From: Candidatus Methanomethylophilaceae archaeon
GTDB taxonomy: Archaea; Thermoplasmatota; Thermoplasmata; Methanomassiliicoccales; Methanomethylophilaceae
Reading direction: 5' to 3'
Length of the DNA stretch: 7,661 nucleotides
Assembly: GCA_017455785.1 (NCBI GenBank)
Contig: JAFSYZ010000158.1
Coordinates: 1 to 7,661, forward strand
Positions 1 through 7,661 of the stretch are shown here, one piece after another. Positions within the stretch are counted from its first letter, which is position 1; each line of letters opens with the position of its first letter. The notes under the pieces are model-generated. The model was not told the DNA's origin. It ran no database searches and saw only the letters and a program-made list of their open reading frames with translations. A program made the position numbers and the translations under genes.

Positions 1-72
1 AAACTCGCCAAAGTTGATTACAGGGCCCTCGAGAAGAGGGAGATCGAGAGATTGGAGTCGACCTCAGAGTAA
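1..72 (+). CDS. 3' end of an unidentified plus-strand gene (partial)
   Basis: Frame 1 is open from the window edge to a TAA stop at 70-72 and gives 23 residues, KLAKVDYRALEKREIERLES followed by TSE. The peptide is strongly charged and looks like an amphipathic helix or coiled-coil tail. Third codon positions are mostly G or C, as in the neighbouring genes, which suggests real coding sequence. It would be the only plus-strand gene here. It converges on the carbonic anhydrase gene, whose stop codon lies at 64-66, so the two 3' ends overlap by nine bases. The start and most of the protein are outside the window, so no function or family can be given. A chance open frame of this length remains possible. 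Confidence 0.5.
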   Translation, partial: KLAKVDYRALEKREIERLESTSE

Positions 73-624
73 GAACTCCACACGTCCGGATTGTGTGTCG
101 TATACAGCACCGACGATGGTGGCGCTGTCGTCCATCATATCGTCCGCGATGAGCATCATACTGTTGAGGACGTTCAGTTTAGTAGCCTCATACGGGTCCG
201 TCTCGAAACCTATGCCGGCACGGACATCGTTTATGATCTCCAAAGAATGCCTGTCATAATGTCCCTTGATCGCTTCTATGACGGCACCGCAATTCGTATG
301 TCCCATCACCAACACAAGATTCACACCCAGATGGTCGACGGCATATTCCATGCTCCCAAGAGTACTGTCGTCGACCACGTTGCCCGCACATCTCACAACG
401 AACAGGTCGCCTATCCCTGTTGAGAAGATAACTTCAGGGATGACACGTGAATCCGCACATGTCAGCACAGCTGCGAAAGGATGCTGTCCGTTCTCGGTAG
501 TGTAGGAGCGCCTGGAGATACGGATGTCACCGTCATAGGAATCCGATTCCACGAACCTGCGGTTACCTTCCTTCAGTCTCTTCAGTGCTTTCTCCGCCGG
601 TATGCTCCTCTTGAGCGTGGACAT
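64..624 (-). CDS. Beta-class carbonic anhydrase
   Basis: This encodes a 186-residue cytoplasmic zinc enzyme that interconverts CO2 and bicarbonate. The beta-class zinc site is visible: Cys56 with the Asp58-Arg60 dyad in CADSR, and His109 and Cys112 in GHTNCGA. The family segments GDLFVVRCAGN and SMEYAVDHLGV lie between them. The N-terminal ALKRLKEGNRRFVE helix is also typical, and the length fits a compact beta enzyme. The ATG at 624 is preferred. A TTG at 654 would add ten residues that do not look family-like and would read through the GATATC repeats. No clear Shine-Dalgarno precedes either start, so the mRNA may be leaderless or short-leadered. A terminator separates the gene from the upstream transporter operon, so it is probably a separate transcription unit. 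Its role in an autotroph or methanogen would be supplying CO2/bicarbonate, which is inference. Confidence 0.93.
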   Translation of the reverse strand: MSTLKRSIPAEKALKRLKEGNRRFVESDSYDGDIRISRRSYTTENGQHPFAAVLTCADSRVIPEVIFSTGIGDLFVVRCAGNVVDDSTLGSMEYAVDHLGVNLVLVMGHTNCGAVIEAIKGHYDRHSLEIINDVRAGIGFETDPYEATKLNVLNSMMLIADDMMDDSATIVGAVYDTQSGRVEFLL

Positions 625-652
625 GATATCTGGATATCGATTATCTGATATC
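625..652. repeat. Clustered GATATC motifs upstream of the carbonic anhydrase
   Basis: Perfect GATATC hexamers occur at 625-630, 633-638 and 647-652, with a one-base-expanded copy GATTATC at 639-645. Together they form an imperfect 28-base dyad that ends at the carbonic anhydrase ATG (622-624). The position fits an operator or part of a promoter. An AT-rich hexamer recurring by chance is the alternative. No known regulator is recognised. Confidence 0.4.
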
Positions 653-664
653 AATGAATTGATG

Positions 665-1527: not shown

Positions 1528-2716
1528 AGGTGGACTTGTTCTTGCGTATGACCAGCCAGATGAACACCGGACCGCCTACGCATGCCATGATGATTCCCAC
1601 GGGAACCAAGGTCGGGGCTATGACCATCTTACCTACCAGGTGTGCAACCACCATCAATGCCGAACCGAATGCGGCAGATGCGGGTATCAGGTACCTGTTG
1701 TCGGCACCTATGAACATCCTGATGATGTGCGGGCACACCAATCCTACGAATCCGATCAGACCTGTGAAACTGATGATACCTGCGCTGACCACAGCGGTCA
1801 GGATGAGACATATGATACGGAGCTTGTCCGCGTTGATTCCCATGGCCTTGGCGTTCTCATCGCCTGTGGACAGGACGTTGATACGTGATGCCAGGTACAT
1901 CGACACTATGACACCGATGACGGTGATGACCGCCATCACCGGGAGATCGTTCCACTGTACGAGCTGCACATCTCCCATGAGCCAATTGTCCAATGCGGAC
2001 ATTGCTGTTCCTCCGGCCACGAGACGTATGATACTGGTGGCGGCATTGAACACGTACATGATACCGATACCGGTCATGATGATGGTGATCGGTGATGCGT
2101 TGGTCATCTTGGAAATCAACAGGATGACCAATACAGGGATCATGGAGAATGCGAATGCGAGAAGGACTGTCAGACTCGAGATCTGCACCAGGATCGAACC
2201 AGATGCGATAGCGAGTGCTGCACCGAATGATGCTCCGGACGATATACCTGTGGTATACGGGTCCGCCATTGGGTTCCTGAGGACACTCTGCATGACAGCA
2301 CCGCAGATGGCCAATCCGGCACCGCCCAACAGTGCACCGAGCACTGGCGGCGTCGCGTACAGAGTCCAGTGGACGACCGAATCATCAAGATCGGCCTGAC
2401 CCAACATGTAATCCCATAGGATCTGGATGGTCTGTATCATGTCACCGCAGAGAGGCCCGCTCTGAATCGAATAGATTGCAGCGAACAGGGCGACCACGAT
2501 CAACAGTACGATCATGGCGATCCTTACTCTGACCGACTTCGCGTAACGTGATACGGTATCGGAGAACATCTCATCGTCAGAGATATCGTCCGTCCATGAA
2601 TCCACAGAATCCTTGACACCATCGGACAGAAGGACGTCCTGTTTGATGTCGCTAACGAACTTCAACTTATCACAACTGAATGGGATGCCCCGAAGGGCAT
2701 CGGTTTGTTCAGGCAT
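1523..2716 (-). CDS. FecCD-type ABC transporter permease (second operon)
   Basis: This 397-residue polytopic membrane protein of the FecCD/BtuC family forms, as a dimer, the channel for substrate delivered by the upstream binding protein. About ten membrane segments follow residue 66. Family landmarks are RNPMADPYTTGISSGA (147-162), the coupling segment STGDENAKAMGI (283-294), GFVGLVCPH (322-330) and PVGIIMACVGGPVF (372-385). Two things are odd. Residues 1-66 form an extra, acidic, soluble N-terminal tail that is probably cytoplasmic. The RxPR motif before the conserved helix (RLPR and RFPR in the other two permeases here) is replaced by ATPP at 121-124. The ATG at 2716 overlaps the binding-protein stop by eight bases (ATGCCTGA) and has no clear Shine-Dalgarno, so coupled translation is likely. 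A later ATG at 2569 (Met50) is an alternative start. Confidence 0.92.
   Translation of the reverse strand: MPEQTDALRGIPFSCDKLKFVSDIKQDVLLSDGVKDSVDSWTDDISDDEMFSDTVSRYAKSVRVRIAMIVLLIVVALFAAIYSIQSGPLCGDMIQTIQILWDYMLGQADLDDSVVHWTLYATPPVLGALLGGAGLAICGAVMQSVLRNPMADPYTTGISSGASFGAALAIASGSILVQISSLTVLLAFAFSMIPVLVILLISKMTNASPITIIMTGIGIMYVFNAATSIIRLVAGGTAMSALDNWLMGDVQLVQWNDLPVMAVITVIGVIVSMYLASRINVLSTGDENAKAMGINADKLRIICLILTAVVSAGIISFTGLIGFVGLVCPHIIRMFIGADNRYLIPASAAFGSALMVVAHLVGKMVIAPTLVPVGIIMACVGGPVFIWLVIRKNKSTW
2684..2701 (-). promoter_or_regulatory. UUCG-capped RNA hairpin at the binding-protein/permease junction
   Basis: The minus-strand RNA can fold a perfect seven-base-pair stem, GATGCCC with GGGCATC, closed by C(UUCG)G, one of the most stable RNA tetraloops. 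It starts eight bases after the binding-protein stop codon and lies within the first codons of the permease. No T-tract follows, so it is not a simple terminator. It may protect the 3' end of the binding-protein mRNA or lower permease expression. Confidence 0.6.
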
Positions 2717-4070
2717 TCAGTTCTGAGTAGACGAGAGGAGCGAACTTGGAGTTCTTGACGTCACCCTTGAAGTTGGTGAAGTTGTCGTAGTACTCTTGCA
2801 TAAGGCTCCATGCCTCATCCTCGTTGTATGCGTTAGGCCAGATCTTCGAGGCGAGCACGAGTATGCTTGCATATCCTGCGAGCGTACAGGTCTCGAACGG
2901 CATTGCATACAGCTTTCCGTTCTTTCCTGCTGTGGACTTGTCGAATCCGTGCTGGATCCATGCCTTGAAAGCATCCTGATACTGCTGTACTGTGACGTTC
3001 TTGTCGCTTGCGTATGCGAACATCGCAACGACGAACATATCAGGGTTCAGAGCGACCAACTGGTCAGCGGTCATCTCATCGAATCCGTCTGCTGCAGTGG
3101 TGGTGACCTTGGATGTCACGGGGAGCTTCTCCAACAGTGTGACATCTGCTGTGGTCATCGGACCGGAACCGTGTGCATCAACGTAGAACGCTTCATATCC
3201 GGGAGCGCAGTAGGGGATGATGTAGCTCAATGCGGTAGCACCGGCTGCGTGTCCTGCTGCGATCTTAGCGTTGACCTTCTCCATGAACTCGATGAAGGGT
3301 TTTGTCTTATCCTGCAGGTTGTACATCGCACCGAGCGTGATCAGTGTATCCAATGAGTCCACTTTGTTGACCGCACGGTTCAGCGGGAGCTTGATGATGG
3401 TGAATCCGAGTGCCTCTGCAGTGTCGCAGTAGCTTCCGAATCCCTTGGGGTGGTCTCCCATCATGATACGTACTCCATCAGCCCACATGACATCGAGTGC
3501 AGGCGTCTTCATTCCGAATGACTTGTATTTGGAGATGTTAGGGTCTAGTGCGGGATCCAGGTTGGATGCGTCGATATCACTGTTGGCGACATATTTGATC
3601 TTGTCATCGATTCCGAGGATGACGGCCATGTCGATTCCAGTACTCCACTCGGTACAGATACCGTAGCTGGTTCCGAGTACACCGGTGAGCGGGTACGGGA
3701 CGTGCCTTACTGTTCCGTCCTGGTCTAGGTAGTACATCGTTGCTGACTGTCCGTTTACGAACTTCTTCACGAGAGCGACGTCCTCATTGTTGATGATTCC
3801 GTCATCGTTGGCATCCACCAGGGGCTCATCTACCCTGTTCCAAATCTTCTTTCCGCTCTCAATGTCCTTGACATACTGTTCAAGACACTTGACATCGTCA
3901 TCATTCAGATAGTTGTCCATGTTGGCATTGCCCAGTACCCTCATCTTACAATCGAGGGATTTGTCGGAAGTGGTAGAACCGTTTCCGTTGTTAACAATGA
4001 CAACAGCCGCTATTCCCGCGACCAATACGACGGCCACGATAGCGACGGCAATTACTACTTTGTTGTCCAT
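2709..4070 (-). CDS. Anchored substrate-binding protein with dockerin-like domain
   Basis: This 453-residue protein lies outside the membrane and captures substrate for the following permease and ATPase. Residues 5-26 form one hydrophobic helix with no lipobox cysteine, so it acts as a signal anchor. Residues 45-68 and 84-107 are two dockerin type I-like, EF-hand-type calcium loops (GNANMDNYLNDDDV and DANDDGIINNEDV). From about residue 112 a periplasmic-binding-protein-2 (TroA/BtuF/FepB fold) domain begins. It is recognised from the LNPDMFVVAMF segment and the C-terminal YAMPFETCTLAGYASILVLA...WPNAYNEDEAWSLMQEYYDNF region. The ATG at 4070 is chosen over an in-frame ATG at 4112, because GGTG sits six bases upstream and the longer form would absorb a leader hairpin. 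The substrate could be an iron chelate, heme or a corrinoid; nothing here decides. The partner of the dockerin repeats is unknown, and they might only bind calcium or act as a spacer. Confidence 0.9.
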   Translation of the reverse strand: MDNKVVIAVAIVAVVLVAGIAAVVIVNNGNGSTTSDKSLDCKMRVLGNANMDNYLNDDDVKCLEQYVKDIESGKKIWNRVDEPLVDANDDGIINNEDVALVKKFVNGQSATMYYLDQDGTVRHVPYPLTGVLGTSYGICTEWSTGIDMAVILGIDDKIKYVANSDIDASNLDPALDPNISKYKSFGMKTPALDVMWADGVRIMMGDHPKGFGSYCDTAEALGFTIIKLPLNRAVNKVDSLDTLITLGAMYNLQDKTKPFIEFMEKVNAKIAAGHAAGATALSYIIPYCAPGYEAFYVDAHGSGPMTTADVTLLEKLPVTSKVTTTAADGFDEMTADQLVALNPDMFVVAMFAYASDKNVTVQQYQDAFKAWIQHGFDKSTAGKNGKLYAMPFETCTLAGYASILVLASKIWPNAYNEDEAWSLMQEYYDNFTNFKGDVKNSKFAPLVYSELNA

Positions 4071-4076
4071 ATTTAG

Positions 4077-4083
4077 CACCTTT
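4077..4083 (-). promoter_or_regulatory. Ribosome binding site deciding the binding-protein start
   Basis: The minus strand reads AAAGGTG, with six bases between GGTG and the ATG at 4070. The alternative ATG at 4112 has no comparable sequence upstream. This favours the shorter protein, which then begins directly with its hydrophobic anchor. Confidence 0.7.
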
Positions 4084-4097
4084 AAGAATCCGTTTCT

Positions 4098-4111
4098 TGT
4101 CGTTACCGACA
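4098..4111 (-). promoter_or_regulatory. GNRA-capped hairpin in the binding-protein mRNA leader
   Basis: The RNA TGTCG-GTAA-CGACA forms a five-base-pair stem with a GUAA tetraloop of the GNRA class. It lies between the predicted transcription start (near 4120-4128) and the ribosome binding site. It could stabilise the 5' end of the transcript. The stem is short, so chance is possible. Confidence 0.4.
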
Positions 4112-4130
4112 TGTTGGATTATACATCCAT

Positions 4131-4283: not shown

Positions 4284-5102
4284 TCACTCCAACGGTACCT
4301 CGTCCTCTGGTGGCCCCTTGTAACGCTTCGGCAGTACATAGATCTCCCCATCCCTGTCGAATCCCACTGATGCCTCCACCTCGTAGACCTCGCGTATGAG
4401 CTCCTCGGTGATGACCTTCTTCGGTTCCCCGATGGCGATGAGCTGACCCTTTTTCATTATGATACAGAGGTCGCAGTACCTTGCCATCAGCGAGATATCG
4501 TGCTCTGCGACGAGGATGGTCATATCCTGTTTGATCATGGCCCTGAGATACTCCATCACATCAAGCTTGTACTTCATGTCAAGGTGGGATGTGGGCTCAT
4601 CGACAAGCATCAGACGCGGGTTCTGCACATACGCCTTAGCGATCAGCACCCTCTGCTGCTCTCCGGAGGACAGCATGTTCAGTGCCCTGTCCTGAAGATG
4701 GTACACACCGAACTTCTTCAGCGTATCAACCACGATGGATTCATCCTCCTCGGTCTCCCACCACATGTTCTGCAGATAGGGATACCTTCCGAGCATGACG
4801 GTCTCGAACACCGTCAGACCGAATGATGCGGTCATTTCGGCAGGAACGTTCGATACCAATCTCGCTACCTCAGCGGGTGTCTTCGGCATCACCGATTCAC
4901 CGTCGATCAGGATGTCACCGCTGGTAGGCATGTGCATCTTGTTGATGCAGCGCATCATGGTGGTCTTACCGCATCCGTTGGGACCTATCAGTCCGACCAG
5001 CTTACCCGAAGGGATGCTGAATGATATGTCCCTGTCTGCGTGATATCCATTCTCATAAACCTTGTCCAAATGACGGACCTCTAATAACGGAACCTCATCC
5101 AT
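4284..5102 (-). CDS. ABC transporter ATPase, FecE/BtuD type (first operon)
   Basis: This 272-residue nucleotide-binding subunit energises the pair of permeases encoded immediately upstream. Motifs are Walker A GPNGCGKTT (40-48), a divergent signature LSSGE (144-148), Walker B LMLVDEP (164-170), D-loop SHLD (172-175) and the switch His201 in AEHD. The Q-loop position reads NVPA, with Ala88 where glutamine is usual, the same change as in the second-operon ATPase. The C-terminal tail (EVEASVGFDRDGEIYVLPKR) is of the kind seen in iron-chelate ATPases. The start at 5102 gives an eight-base overlap (ATGGATGA) with the permease stop and a purine-rich GAGGGGGA upstream. An in-frame ATG at 5150 would add 16 residues that do not resemble the family. 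Transcription after this gene runs into the hairpins at 4170-4250. Confidence 0.92.
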   Translation of the reverse strand: MDEVPLLEVRHLDKVYENGYHADRDISFSIPSGKLVGLIGPNGCGKTTMMRCINKMHMPTSGDILIDGESVMPKTPAEVARLVSNVPAEMTASFGLTVFETVMLGRYPYLQNMWWETEEDESIVVDTLKKFGVYHLQDRALNMLSSGEQQRVLIAKAYVQNPRLMLVDEPTSHLDMKYKLDVMEYLRAMIKQDMTILVAEHDISLMARYCDLCIIMKKGQLIAIGEPKKVITEELIREVYEVEASVGFDRDGEIYVLPKRYKGPPEDEVPLE

Positions 5103-6195
5103 TGTAAATCTTCCCCCTCTTGATAAGCAGATAGGCGAACACGGGGACACCTATCATGGTTGTGATAGCTCCCACAGGGAGCTCTGTACCTGGAATTATC
5201 ATTCTTGCCACCAGATCGGCAAGCATCATCAGCACCCCTCCCAATGCGAGGGATGCGGGAAGGACCAGCCTGTGGTCCCCTCCGAAGAGCATACGGCACA
5301 AGTGCGGGACGACAAGTCCTACGAACCCGATTATACCGCAGAACGCGACACAGAAAGCGGTCATGACCGAAGCCAATACCAACACGATAGCGTTGAACTT
5401 CTTGACGTCAAGACCCATCTGTCTGGCCTGATTCTCACCAAGGAGGATCAGATTCAGCTCTTTGGCATATCTGAACAGCAGCACCGACATCACGATCACG
5501 GGGATCAGTATGAACAGCGCCTTGTCCCATGTGATGTTGGCGAAAGAACCGAACAGCCACAGCAGGACATCCGATACCTTGTTACCGGAGAACACGATCA
5601 TCAGCGTCTGCACGGCACCGAACACCAATCCTATCACCACTCCAGACAGCACATATGCGTTGGTAGTTGCATCGGCCCTGTGCGCCAGGACCATAGTAAG
5701 ACCGAAAGCCAAAAGACCGCCGATTATGGCGGCTATCGCTATCAGGTAGATGGAATGTGATGATATCAGTCCGAAGAACGTGAAGTTGAACGCTATGACA
5801 GCGATGGCGAAGGTTCCGGCTCCGGATGACACACCCATGATGTACGGGTCGACCAACGGGTTGCGGATGACTGCCTGGTAAGACGTTCCTGCTATCGACA
5901 GACCCAATCCTACAGCTATGGCCGCTACCGCCCTGGGGAAACGTGAACTGAACACCATGACCTCCTTGTCGGTCATAGCTGAACCGTCCTTCCCTATCGC
6001 GGAGAACAGGTTGGAGAGTGCATCTATGGGATCCAATATCGCCGTCGGTCCGATGCAGAGCATCATCACGAATACTATCAGCAGTAGTGCAGTGCCAACA
6101 GTTGCCAGGAATACCATCCTGTGTCTCTTCCTCTCGATATGGGTCTCACCCTTGCCGTCTATGACGGCCCTCAACTTGTCACGGAAGTCACCCAT
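5095..6195 (-). CDS. FecCD-type ABC transporter permease (first operon, second copy)
   Basis: This 366-residue inner-membrane channel subunit of the FecCD/BtuC family has a charged cytoplasmic N-terminus (1-26) followed by about ten membrane helices. Motifs are RFPR (85-88), RNPLVDPYIMGVSSGAG (111-127), the coupling segment LGENQARQMGL (252-262), GFVGLVVPH (290-298) and ELPVGAITTMIGVPVF (338-353). It is closely similar along its whole length to the permease domain of the preceding gene, so the pair is a tandem duplication. The two probably assemble as a heterodimer like FecC/FecD, although homodimers are possible. The ATG at 6195 overlaps the upstream stop by eight bases (ATGGGTGA) and has GGGAGGGG as a good ribosome binding site. 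The substrate is unknown; iron chelates, heme and corrinoids are the family possibilities. Confidence 0.94.
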   Translation of the reverse strand: MGDFRDKLRAVIDGKGETHIERKRHRMVFLATVGTALLLIVFVMMLCIGPTAILDPIDALSNLFSAIGKDGSAMTDKEVMVFSSRFPRAVAAIAVGLGLSIAGTSYQAVIRNPLVDPYIMGVSSGAGTFAIAVIAFNFTFFGLISSHSIYLIAIAAIIGGLLAFGLTMVLAHRADATTNAYVLSGVVIGLVFGAVQTLMIVFSGNKVSDVLLWLFGSFANITWDKALFILIPVIVMSVLLFRYAKELNLILLGENQARQMGLDVKKFNAIVLVLASVMTAFCVAFCGIIGFVGLVVPHLCRMLFGGDHRLVLPASLALGGVLMMLADLVARMIIPGTELPVGAITTMIGVPVFAYLLIKRGKIYNG

Positions 6196-7661
6196 CGTAA
6201 CCCCTCCCTCTCTTCACCAGAAGATAAGCGAACACCGGCACACCTATGATGGTGGTGATCGCACCTACCGGCAATTCATAACCTGACAGCAACACCCTCG
6301 CCAGAAGGTCCGCGGCGACCATCAGGAAACCGCCGAATGCCATTGATGTCGGAAGCATCAGACGGTGGTCCCCTCCCAAGATCATCCTGCTCAGGTGAGG
6401 TATCACCAATCCTACGAATCCTATGATTCCGCAAAAAGCTACACAGAACGATGTCAGCACCGATGCTATTATGAGCATGACGGCATCGAAGCGCTTGGCG
6501 TTCAATCCCATCTGTCTTGCCTGGTCCTCTCCCAGGAGAACGAGGTTGAACTCCCTCGCCCATACCAATGGGACCAGGGACAGCGTCAGCGACGGCACCA
6601 ATACCAGCCATACCTTGTCCCATGTCATGGTGCTGAACGAACCGTACAGCCACGACAGAGCGCTGGCGACCTTAGTACCGGCATCGATCATCAGCACCGA
6701 CTGTATGGCGGCGAACACCAATCCTATGACTATTCCCGCCAACACGTAATTAATGGATTTGCCTCCGGTCTTCAGCGCCATCAGCATCGTGAGTCCGAAT
6801 GCCACCAGTCCGCCGATGATTGCGGCGAAGGCTGTCAGGTACGGGCTCTGTGCGGCGAACAGACCGAAGAATGTGAAATCGAATGTTATGACTGCGACAG
6901 CGAACGTTCCCGCTCCTGAGGATACTCCCATGATATATGGTTCAACCAGCGGGTTCTTGATCACTGCCTGATACATCGCACCAGCCACGGAGAGACCGAT
7001 ACCTACAGCAATAGCGGCAAGCACACGCGGCAGCCTCTGGTTGTAGATCAGCATCTCCTCGTAGTTGAGGTTGTGTCCCCCTTTACCTATAGCGGAGAAC
7101 ATCGCCGATAACGCATCGGGAAGGGCCAACGTGGTCTCCGACCCGACACAGAGTGAAACAAGACTGACGACCAGGGTAATCAGCACACCGAAGAACAGCA
7201 CGGCGCGAACCTTACGCTTGCTCTTGGTGTTGTGCGAGTAGTTCTCGCCGAAGAAGTAGCGCATCACCCTGTTCCTGATCTCGGAGAACGGGTGGTCCCA
7301 CTTCAGTGCATATTTCAAAACCGCCCAGAGTATGATGAGGAACACGACGAACACGGCGATGATTATCAGGAGTATCTGCCAGAACGGCATCTCCTGCACT
7401 ATGACCGGAACGACGGGTTCCGCGAACGAGTTGAGATAGATCTGGACACCGTTGTCATCGCTTATCACCACGTAGTTATCCACGACGACCGGAGGGGCCA
7501 TGGCGAAGGAACTGATGCCTTCCACCTGACCGATTATCTCACCGTCCATCGTGAGTATCAGTCCCTTGTGTGATGAGTAGGTTGATATGTACATGTACGT
7601 TCCGTTGACCAACACAGCGGAGCTGTGAGGGGAATCATAGCCCCTGACCTCCCTCGTTATT
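6188..7661 (-). CDS. Beta-propeller-like domain fused to FecCD-type permease (5' partial)
   Basis: The frame is open to the window edge. A GTG at 7615 has no ribosome binding site and sits in the middle of a domain, so the real start is outside. Of about 490 visible residues, the first 80 carry two stretches with the PQQ/WD-like propeller-blade pattern: SSAVLVNGTYMYISTYS...GLILTMDG, then APPVVVDNYVVISDDNGVQIY. Next come a strong membrane helix (about 94-119), a basic linker (120-151) and a full FecCD permease with RLPR (209-212), NPLVEPYIMGVSSGAG, LGEDQARQMGL and GFVGLVIPH (414-422). The extra helix would place the propeller outside and the permease N-terminus inside, as the family requires. 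The propeller may act as a tethered receptor in place of a separate binding protein, which is inference. A separate permease starting near Met at 7264 would be the conventional reading, but no ribosome binding site or gap supports it. Confidence 0.88.
   Translation of the reverse strand, partial: ITREVRGYDSPHSSAVLVNGTYMYISTYSSHKGLILTMDGEIIGQVEGISSFAMAPPVVVDNYVVISDDNGVQIYLNSFAEPVVPVIVQEMPFWQILLIIIAVFVVFLIILWAVLKYALKWDHPFSEIRNRVMRYFFGENYSHNTKSKRKVRAVLFFGVLITLVVSLVSLCVGSETTLALPDALSAMFSAIGKGGHNLNYEEMLIYNQRLPRVLAAIAVGIGLSVAGAMYQAVIKNPLVEPYIMGVSSGAGTFAVAVITFDFTFFGLFAAQSPYLTAFAAIIGGLVAFGLTMLMALKTGGKSINYVLAGIVIGLVFAAIQSVLMIDAGTKVASALSWLYGSFSTMTWDKVWLVLVPSLTLSLVPLVWAREFNLVLLGEDQARQMGLNAKRFDAVMLIIASVLTSFCVAFCGIIGFVGLVIPHLSRMILGGDHRLMLPTSMAFGGFLMVAADLLARVLLSGYELPVGAITTIIGVPVFAYLLVKRGRGYDG

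Follow-up and report, generated by a model that had tools for sequence, protein, structure and literature searches.

A beta-propeller joined to a BtuC-type permease in Methanomethylophilaceae: a candidate corrinoid importer

Bacteroides BtuG, as portrayed in the passages of PMC10404256 and PMC6143338 used here, is a surface lipoprotein with a seven-bladed propeller that binds B12 over a TonB-dependent outer-membrane channel. In the part of PMC1796856 drawn upon, a Clostridium protein carrying both a transcobalamin-like domain and a beta-propeller is named, and B12 scavenging is predicted. According to sections of PMC10804542, abundant and diverse BtuC proteins mark the order Methanomassiliicoccales, and rumen btuC expression is tied to low-methane sheep; the word "propeller" does not occur in the main text of that paper. 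The gene described here, at 6188..7660 on the minus strand of contig C30 of a Candidatus Methanomethylophilaceae archaeon (GCA_017455785.1, contig JAFSYZ010000158.1), joins the end of a predicted beta-propeller to a complete FecCD/BtuC-type permease. The window, meaning the whole stretch of DNA analysed, is this entire contig of 7661 bases; the draft assembly to which it belongs amounts to 1.76 Mb (303 contigs).

A propeller head on a FecCD-type permease

The frame is open for 490 amino acids and runs off the contig, its 5' end lying outside. Residues 162-483 match the Pfam FecCD family (PF01032) with 278.4 bits against a cut-off of 26.5, and the propeller stretch of ~86 residues aligns with approximately the last two blades of full-length relatives (alignment A1). 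Taken alone, this fragment is too short to give any Pfam or PQQ hit; when compared with a profile made from the propellers of its paralogue and relatives, with the window excluded, it reaches 47 bits in a search listing matches above 35 bits. The added helix corresponds to helix 597-622 in the structure model of a relative, and the linker following it carries a positive net charge in 25 of 25 aligned fusions. The original prediction, made from the letters of the window, of a single frame uniting two propeller blades, an extra transmembrane helix, a cytoplasmic linker and a complete permease is supported. On contig C12, the source genome has a paralogue, 69% identical, in one frame of 927 amino acids that the contig start cuts; its FecCD score of 273.7 bits is also above the cut-off.

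The fragmented genome and the truncation of the gene by a contig end might point to an assembly or sequencing artefact, an explanation that can hardly be credited. The same join is found in 68 distinct fused permeases from the source genome and its relatives (merged by their last 500 amino acids), some of them in single-contig genomes, and no stop or frameshift interrupts it in the paralogue or in the one-frame relatives. Because paralogue and relatives share the join, it is not a sequencing error; assembly error is rejected on the strength of the one-frame paralogue, the 25 aligned fusions, the 31 phylum genomes introduced below and the 68 distinct fusions. The proviso of the original prediction, that orthologues might always be two separate genes, does not hold, yet a related clade with separate, adjacent genes exists.

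When 389 genomes of the phylum were searched with a profile, at most two candidates per genome being scored, one-frame, stop-free fusions spanning the profile turned up in 31 (rows counted by hand). Of these, 30 belong to the window's family, including the source genome with its start-truncated gene, and G041 belongs to a sister family. Several consist of a single contig (e.g., G006, G012, G017 and G035); the count leaves out G064 and G069, two further members of the family in which the fusion is fragmented or lies at an edge. Single heads used as queries bring up fused and split forms together: a fused head has matches in 76 of the family's 102 genomes, a split head in 79 of the order's 147. 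The matching loci are named Methanomethylophilaceae and other Methanomassiliicoccales, with rumen, faeces and termite records among them. A literature search limited to open-licence PMC papers yielded no description of a propeller-permease fusion, nor is one described in the passages of PMC10804542, PMC12802301, PMC4350170, PMC10404256, PMC6143338 and PMC1796856 consulted.

Full-length fusions measure ~930-1200 amino acids. From the N-terminus, they comprise a signal-type helix, a transcobalamin-like domain, a PQQ/BamB-like propeller, the extra transmembrane helix, the basic linker and the whole permease. The fused architecture is near certain; folds and topology are predicted, the propeller being apparently eight-bladed. 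PQQ_2 exceeds its cut-off of 27.6 in full-length proteins (41.2 bits in the paralogue, 37.7 bits at locus L044), and the best structural matches of the propeller are YxaL, the designed protein Cake8 and BamB. BtuG is not among the 50 propeller structure matches listed, which excludes nothing. The invariant propeller columns are mostly glycines and aromatic residues. The transcobalamin-like domain was folded alone and then matched by structure, since Pfam did not reach DUF4430. It is modelled as a beta-grasp fold with a beta-hairpin inserted after the helix, nearest to B12-binding beta-domains, as defines the transcobalamin-like SLBB type; B12-binding domains are its best structural matches. 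Foldseek alone gives the transcobalamin match at E 0.027 only, and in PDB sequence searches the two domain profiles matched nothing at all or nothing below E 0.11.

Two variations of the head are seen among relatives. A fused subgroup of ~1190-1206 amino acids includes locus L030 (8904-12485), in which 230 extra residues between propeller and added helix resemble, by eye, further transcobalamin-like repeats; L178, L182 and L183 are placed in this subgroup from their length only. In Candidatus Methanomethylophilus sp. 1R26 (L177, 3824-4792 and 4425-7037), the N-terminal portion of the head and its remainder are in different frames, through either an assembly fault or a real break.

When FecCD domains of at least 290 amino acids and at least 300 bits are kept and identical ones merged, 210 reduce to 114. 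Of these, 69 are fused and 26 have the propeller as a separate upstream gene; the rest are nine second subunits, four permeases with a binding protein but no propeller, and six others. Relabelling by hand of two rows marked OTHER or FUPS brings the second subunits to 11, the six others being the count before this correction. In a quick tree of 119 rows, five of them outgroup and several flagged for long branches, the split forms make one clade (support 99) whose sister is the fused gene L056 (99). This sequence-based tree would fit a single fusion with a single later fission as well as repeated fusion. The 11 second subunits and one more head-less permease form a clade (98) within the fused rows, beside the window's fused group, and the second permease of the window belongs to it. 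Two members of this clade (L038 and L039) begin with an extra hydrophobic stretch ahead of the permease, as expected of duplicates of a fusion that lost its head. The adjacent gene pairs of the split forms provide independent support for the head and the permease working together.

Table 1. Features of the fusion gene and its operon in the window.
Feature	Position	Strand	Basis
Propeller-permease fusion gene, C-terminal 490 codons	6188..7660	-	Open frame; paralogue in own genome; alignment A1 (25 fusions)
Final part of extracellular propeller, ~last two blades	7403..7660	-	Alignment A1 coordinates; propeller-profile score
Added transmembrane helix between propeller and permease	7316..7384	-	Hydrophobic stretch read from translation
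Basic linker, predicted cytoplasmic	7211..7315	-	Net charge +6
FecCD/BtuC-type permease domain	6212..7177	-	Pfam FecCD
Second FecCD permease subunit, no propeller	5095..6195	-	Pfam FecCD, 285 bits
ATP-binding cassette (ABC) ATPase of operon	4284..5150	-	Pfam ABC_tran, 110 bits

Operon partners and corrinoid gene context

It had been noted that no binding-protein gene is visible in the operon. This is true of the part of the operon on the contig but not of the operon type, the apparent lack arising because the contig ends within the fusion. A Peripla_BP_2-type gene lies upstream in 59 of the 68 distinct fused permeases (within 600 bases, with some large overlaps due to overlong start choices), and the remaining nine stand at a contig or locus edge. 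The suggestion that the propeller takes the place of the binding protein is therefore rejected. Scores to Peripla_BP_2 (PF01497) reach 110 (L044), 107.9 (L034) and 99.3 bits (L033) against a cut-off of 27.5. In the source genome, the start of such a gene is found at the end of contig C150; it could belong to either of the two fused genes. Downstream of the 68 fusions, the adjoining gene codes for an ATPase in 56 cases and for a second permease in 10; in two, none is seen. Permease, ATPase and binding protein thus share one operon in relatives, as in BtuCDF-type importers, the window's upstream side being cut off.

Two features lie outside the window and were absent from the original prediction: the transcobalamin-like domain, carried by the head and by the binding protein alike, and corrinoid salvage genes near the operons of relatives. 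The domain is present on 80 of 80 complete binding proteins (>150 bits, <540 amino acids, away from edges). Just ahead of the binding-protein gene, L044 (7619-8197), L165 (1314-2102) and L172 (1457-2317) each encode a further small protein with a hydrophobic helix at its N-terminus and a weak match to the transcobalamin-like domain (~20-25 bits), possibly a third corrinoid-binding surface protein.

G006 is taken to be Candidatus Methanoplasma termitum, its fusion being identical to protein P0001, which is annotated "cobalamin import system permease protein BtuC". In this genome the ATPase is followed by a Sir2-like gene, then by CobD-like, CbiB, CbiS, CobS and CobY-like genes; CbiB, CbiS and CobS score above cut-off, CobD-like (best model) and CobY-like below. 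CbiB and CobS above cut-off lie beside the operons of L042, L210 and L211, CobS in L209 and L212, and CbiB in L030; CobD-like genes are also found in L042, L047, L055 and L030. Of the 62 genomes that have both CobS and a fused-type frame, 16 from six genera place the two no more than 10 kb apart (some fusion ends are rounded from match ends). In the source genome, an MtaA/CmuA-family methyltransferase (below cut-off) precedes the binding-protein start; this family serves a corrinoid-dependent step of methanogenesis. In some loci (L212, 5524-6648; L044, 17565-19004; L209, 7149-8456), the CobS domain is C-terminal in longer frames with 100-200 extra N-terminal residues, which may reflect an overlong start choice or a fusion.

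A proposed importer and its alternatives

The favoured reading, held with somewhat better than even confidence, sees in the fusion the permease subunit of an importer for corrinoids (vitamin B12), with a head that would catch them and pass them on. A corrinoid is the likely ligand, probably cobinamide or a cobamide. In the proposed scheme, head and binding protein would both stand outside the cell, each with its transcobalamin-like domain. Corrinoid would be caught by the head, which would also keep the loaded binding protein over the pore or receive it there. The membrane-tethered binding protein and the head would jointly hold the corrinoid over the BtuC-type channel. Hydrolysis of ATP by the ATPase would drive import through the pore; once in the cell, the cofactor would be reassembled by CbiS, CbiB, CobY and CobS. 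Most relatives would form a homodimer with two heads; in the window's clade, the second, head-less permease would give a heterodimer with one head.

Several results weigh against this proposal. As to the ligand, the NCBIfam BtuC, BtuF and corrinoid-ATPase models remain far under cut-off (the two top models for the window gene, both BtuC, score 212.9 and 210.9 bits against equivalog cut-offs of 461 and 334), and models for FecD, FhuB, heme and F420-0 come close behind. For the window ATPase, the best models are those of the F420-0 and corrinoid ABC ATPases, both under cut-off, with F420-0 first. The binding protein scores 74.1 bits to a PGF-CTERM-anchored model, ahead of BtuF (44.4), and its nearest solved structure, 4m7o (E 6.6e-20), is called an "Iron-binding protein", with BtuF following at 1e-8 to 7e-8. 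Pfam DUF4430 (PF14478) gives no hit in ten N-domains (five fusions, two split heads and three binding proteins), and only one, at E 0.1, in 16 binding-protein N-domains. CbiS is under cut-off in L209 and L212. In 46 of the 62 genomes CobS falls outside the 10-kb range (14 on the same contig at 18-310 kb, 32 on another contig), and it is near the locus in none of 26 split-gene genomes, with one split locus taken per genome (Fisher p 0.002; this value and the binomial values for CobS proximity ignore relatedness). CbiD is present in 75 of 102 family genomes, so most of these archaea may make their own corrinoid; as 90 of the 102 also have CobS, a need for import through missing biosynthesis is unsupported. 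Lastly, four distinct permeases have a binding-protein gene upstream and no head, so the head is dispensable.

Some loci lack the head. In G001 (locus L035), a same-genus relative, a binding protein, two permeases without propeller, an ATPase, CobS and a CobY-like gene stand in a row; L188, L189, L195 and L206, the last with its permease cut by the contig end, likewise combine a binding protein bearing the transcobalamin-like domain with a permease without propeller head.

FecCD permeases serve heme, siderophore, F420-precursor and corrinoid ligands alike. The system might therefore import one of the other ligands, its transcobalamin-like domain binding another small molecule, since the NCBIfam scores do not separate ligands and the nearest solved binding protein is called iron-binding. 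A warning to this effect appears in the part of PMC1796856 used, namely that archaeal members may scavenge another metabolite, B12 often being made by these archaea. Set against this, corrinoid salvage genes adjoin the operon in several genera and the best structural matches of the N-domain are B12-binding domains, which makes another ligand improbable.

A second alternative concerns the head. It may be a docking platform only, recruiting and orienting the loaded binding protein with no ligand contact; the mycobacterial eight-bladed protein Rv3035 binds FecB and serves as the model. This is considered unlikely: the head bears a transcobalamin-like domain, unneeded by a pure dock, and the FecB-Rv3035 complex, in the passages of PMC12802301 available, serves cell-envelope building and not import. 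Capture and hand-off are favoured over docking alone because of this domain, and the head itself would then bind the corrinoid. According to a third alternative, the propeller would be a PQQ-like redox, hydrolase or sensor domain, or a cell-wall anchor, regulating the transporter. Its best matches, YxaL, Cake8 and BamB, are to our knowledge not enzymes, its invariant columns are mostly glycines and aromatic residues (no test aimed at an active site was made), and pqqE is reported absent from the order in passages of PMC10804542; such a role is very improbable. A more detailed version of the corrinoid reading remains tentative and is rather doubted: the B12 domains of head and binding protein would act as a double clamp, holding the vitamin under the propeller and passing it straight into the fused channel. 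Such an importer would be the single-membrane counterpart of the Bacteroides BtuG lid, for gut methanogens competing for corrinoids.

Within the window, the start of the second permease overlaps the fusion stop by 8 bases, and an alternative internal ATPase start near 5102 would leave a short overlap with the permease stop. A second FecCD operon follows on the minus strand (2709-4112, 1523-2716 and 712-1518). Its binding-protein-like gene, 2709-4112, has a weak Peripla_BP_2 match (18 bits against 27.5) and, near the N-terminus, two repeats without any model hit that look like EF-hand or dockerin-type calcium loops. Downstream of this operon lies a beta-class carbonic anhydrase (64-654, minus strand; Pfam Pro_CA, 109 bits). 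The Rfam scan of the window gave no RNA element at gathering scores.

Comparison with known systems

H2-dependent methylotrophic methanogenesis runs on corrinoid proteins, and these archaea may therefore be limited by their corrinoid supply. Capture of corrinoid by the head, if it occurs, would explain how a single-membrane archaeon competes with Bacteroides-type B12 scavengers, and a transcobalamin-like domain would be at work within an ABC importer. The family also offers a natural comparison of fused, split and head-less forms, and of homodimer and heterodimer forms, of one transporter.

GlnPQ and OpuA are type I ABC permeases with classical substrate-binding domains fused to them; here, a propeller and a transcobalamin-like domain are carried by a FecCD-type permease, and a separate binding protein is kept. 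Compared with E. coli BtuCDF, a vitamin B12 importer, the permease gains a predicted head outside the cell and one more helix, a transcobalamin-like domain stands at the N-terminus of the binding protein, and scores fall below the NCBIfam cut-offs of BtuC, BtuF and the corrinoid ATPase. The transcobalamin-like SLBB proteins share the beta-grasp domain on extracellular proteins, but their operons, in the part of PMC1796856 consulted, pair with CbiO/CbiQ cobalt-type transporters, unlike the FecCD type found here; the word "permease" does not occur in the main text of that paper. In the mycobacterial FecB-Rv3035 complex (PDB 9p3f), an eight-bladed propeller binds a FecB-type protein, as the apparently eight-bladed propeller of the head may do here; Rv3035 is a separate protein with a cell-envelope role and no permease in the complex described (PMC12802301, in part). 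Bacteroides BtuG on BtuB shares a beta-propeller over a corrinoid transporter (passages of PMC10404256 and PMC6143338); the propeller described here differs in being PQQ/BamB-like, apparently eight-bladed and fused to an ABC permease. By analogy, BtuG and Rv3035 may bracket the possible action of the head, between B12 binding and FecB-type docking.
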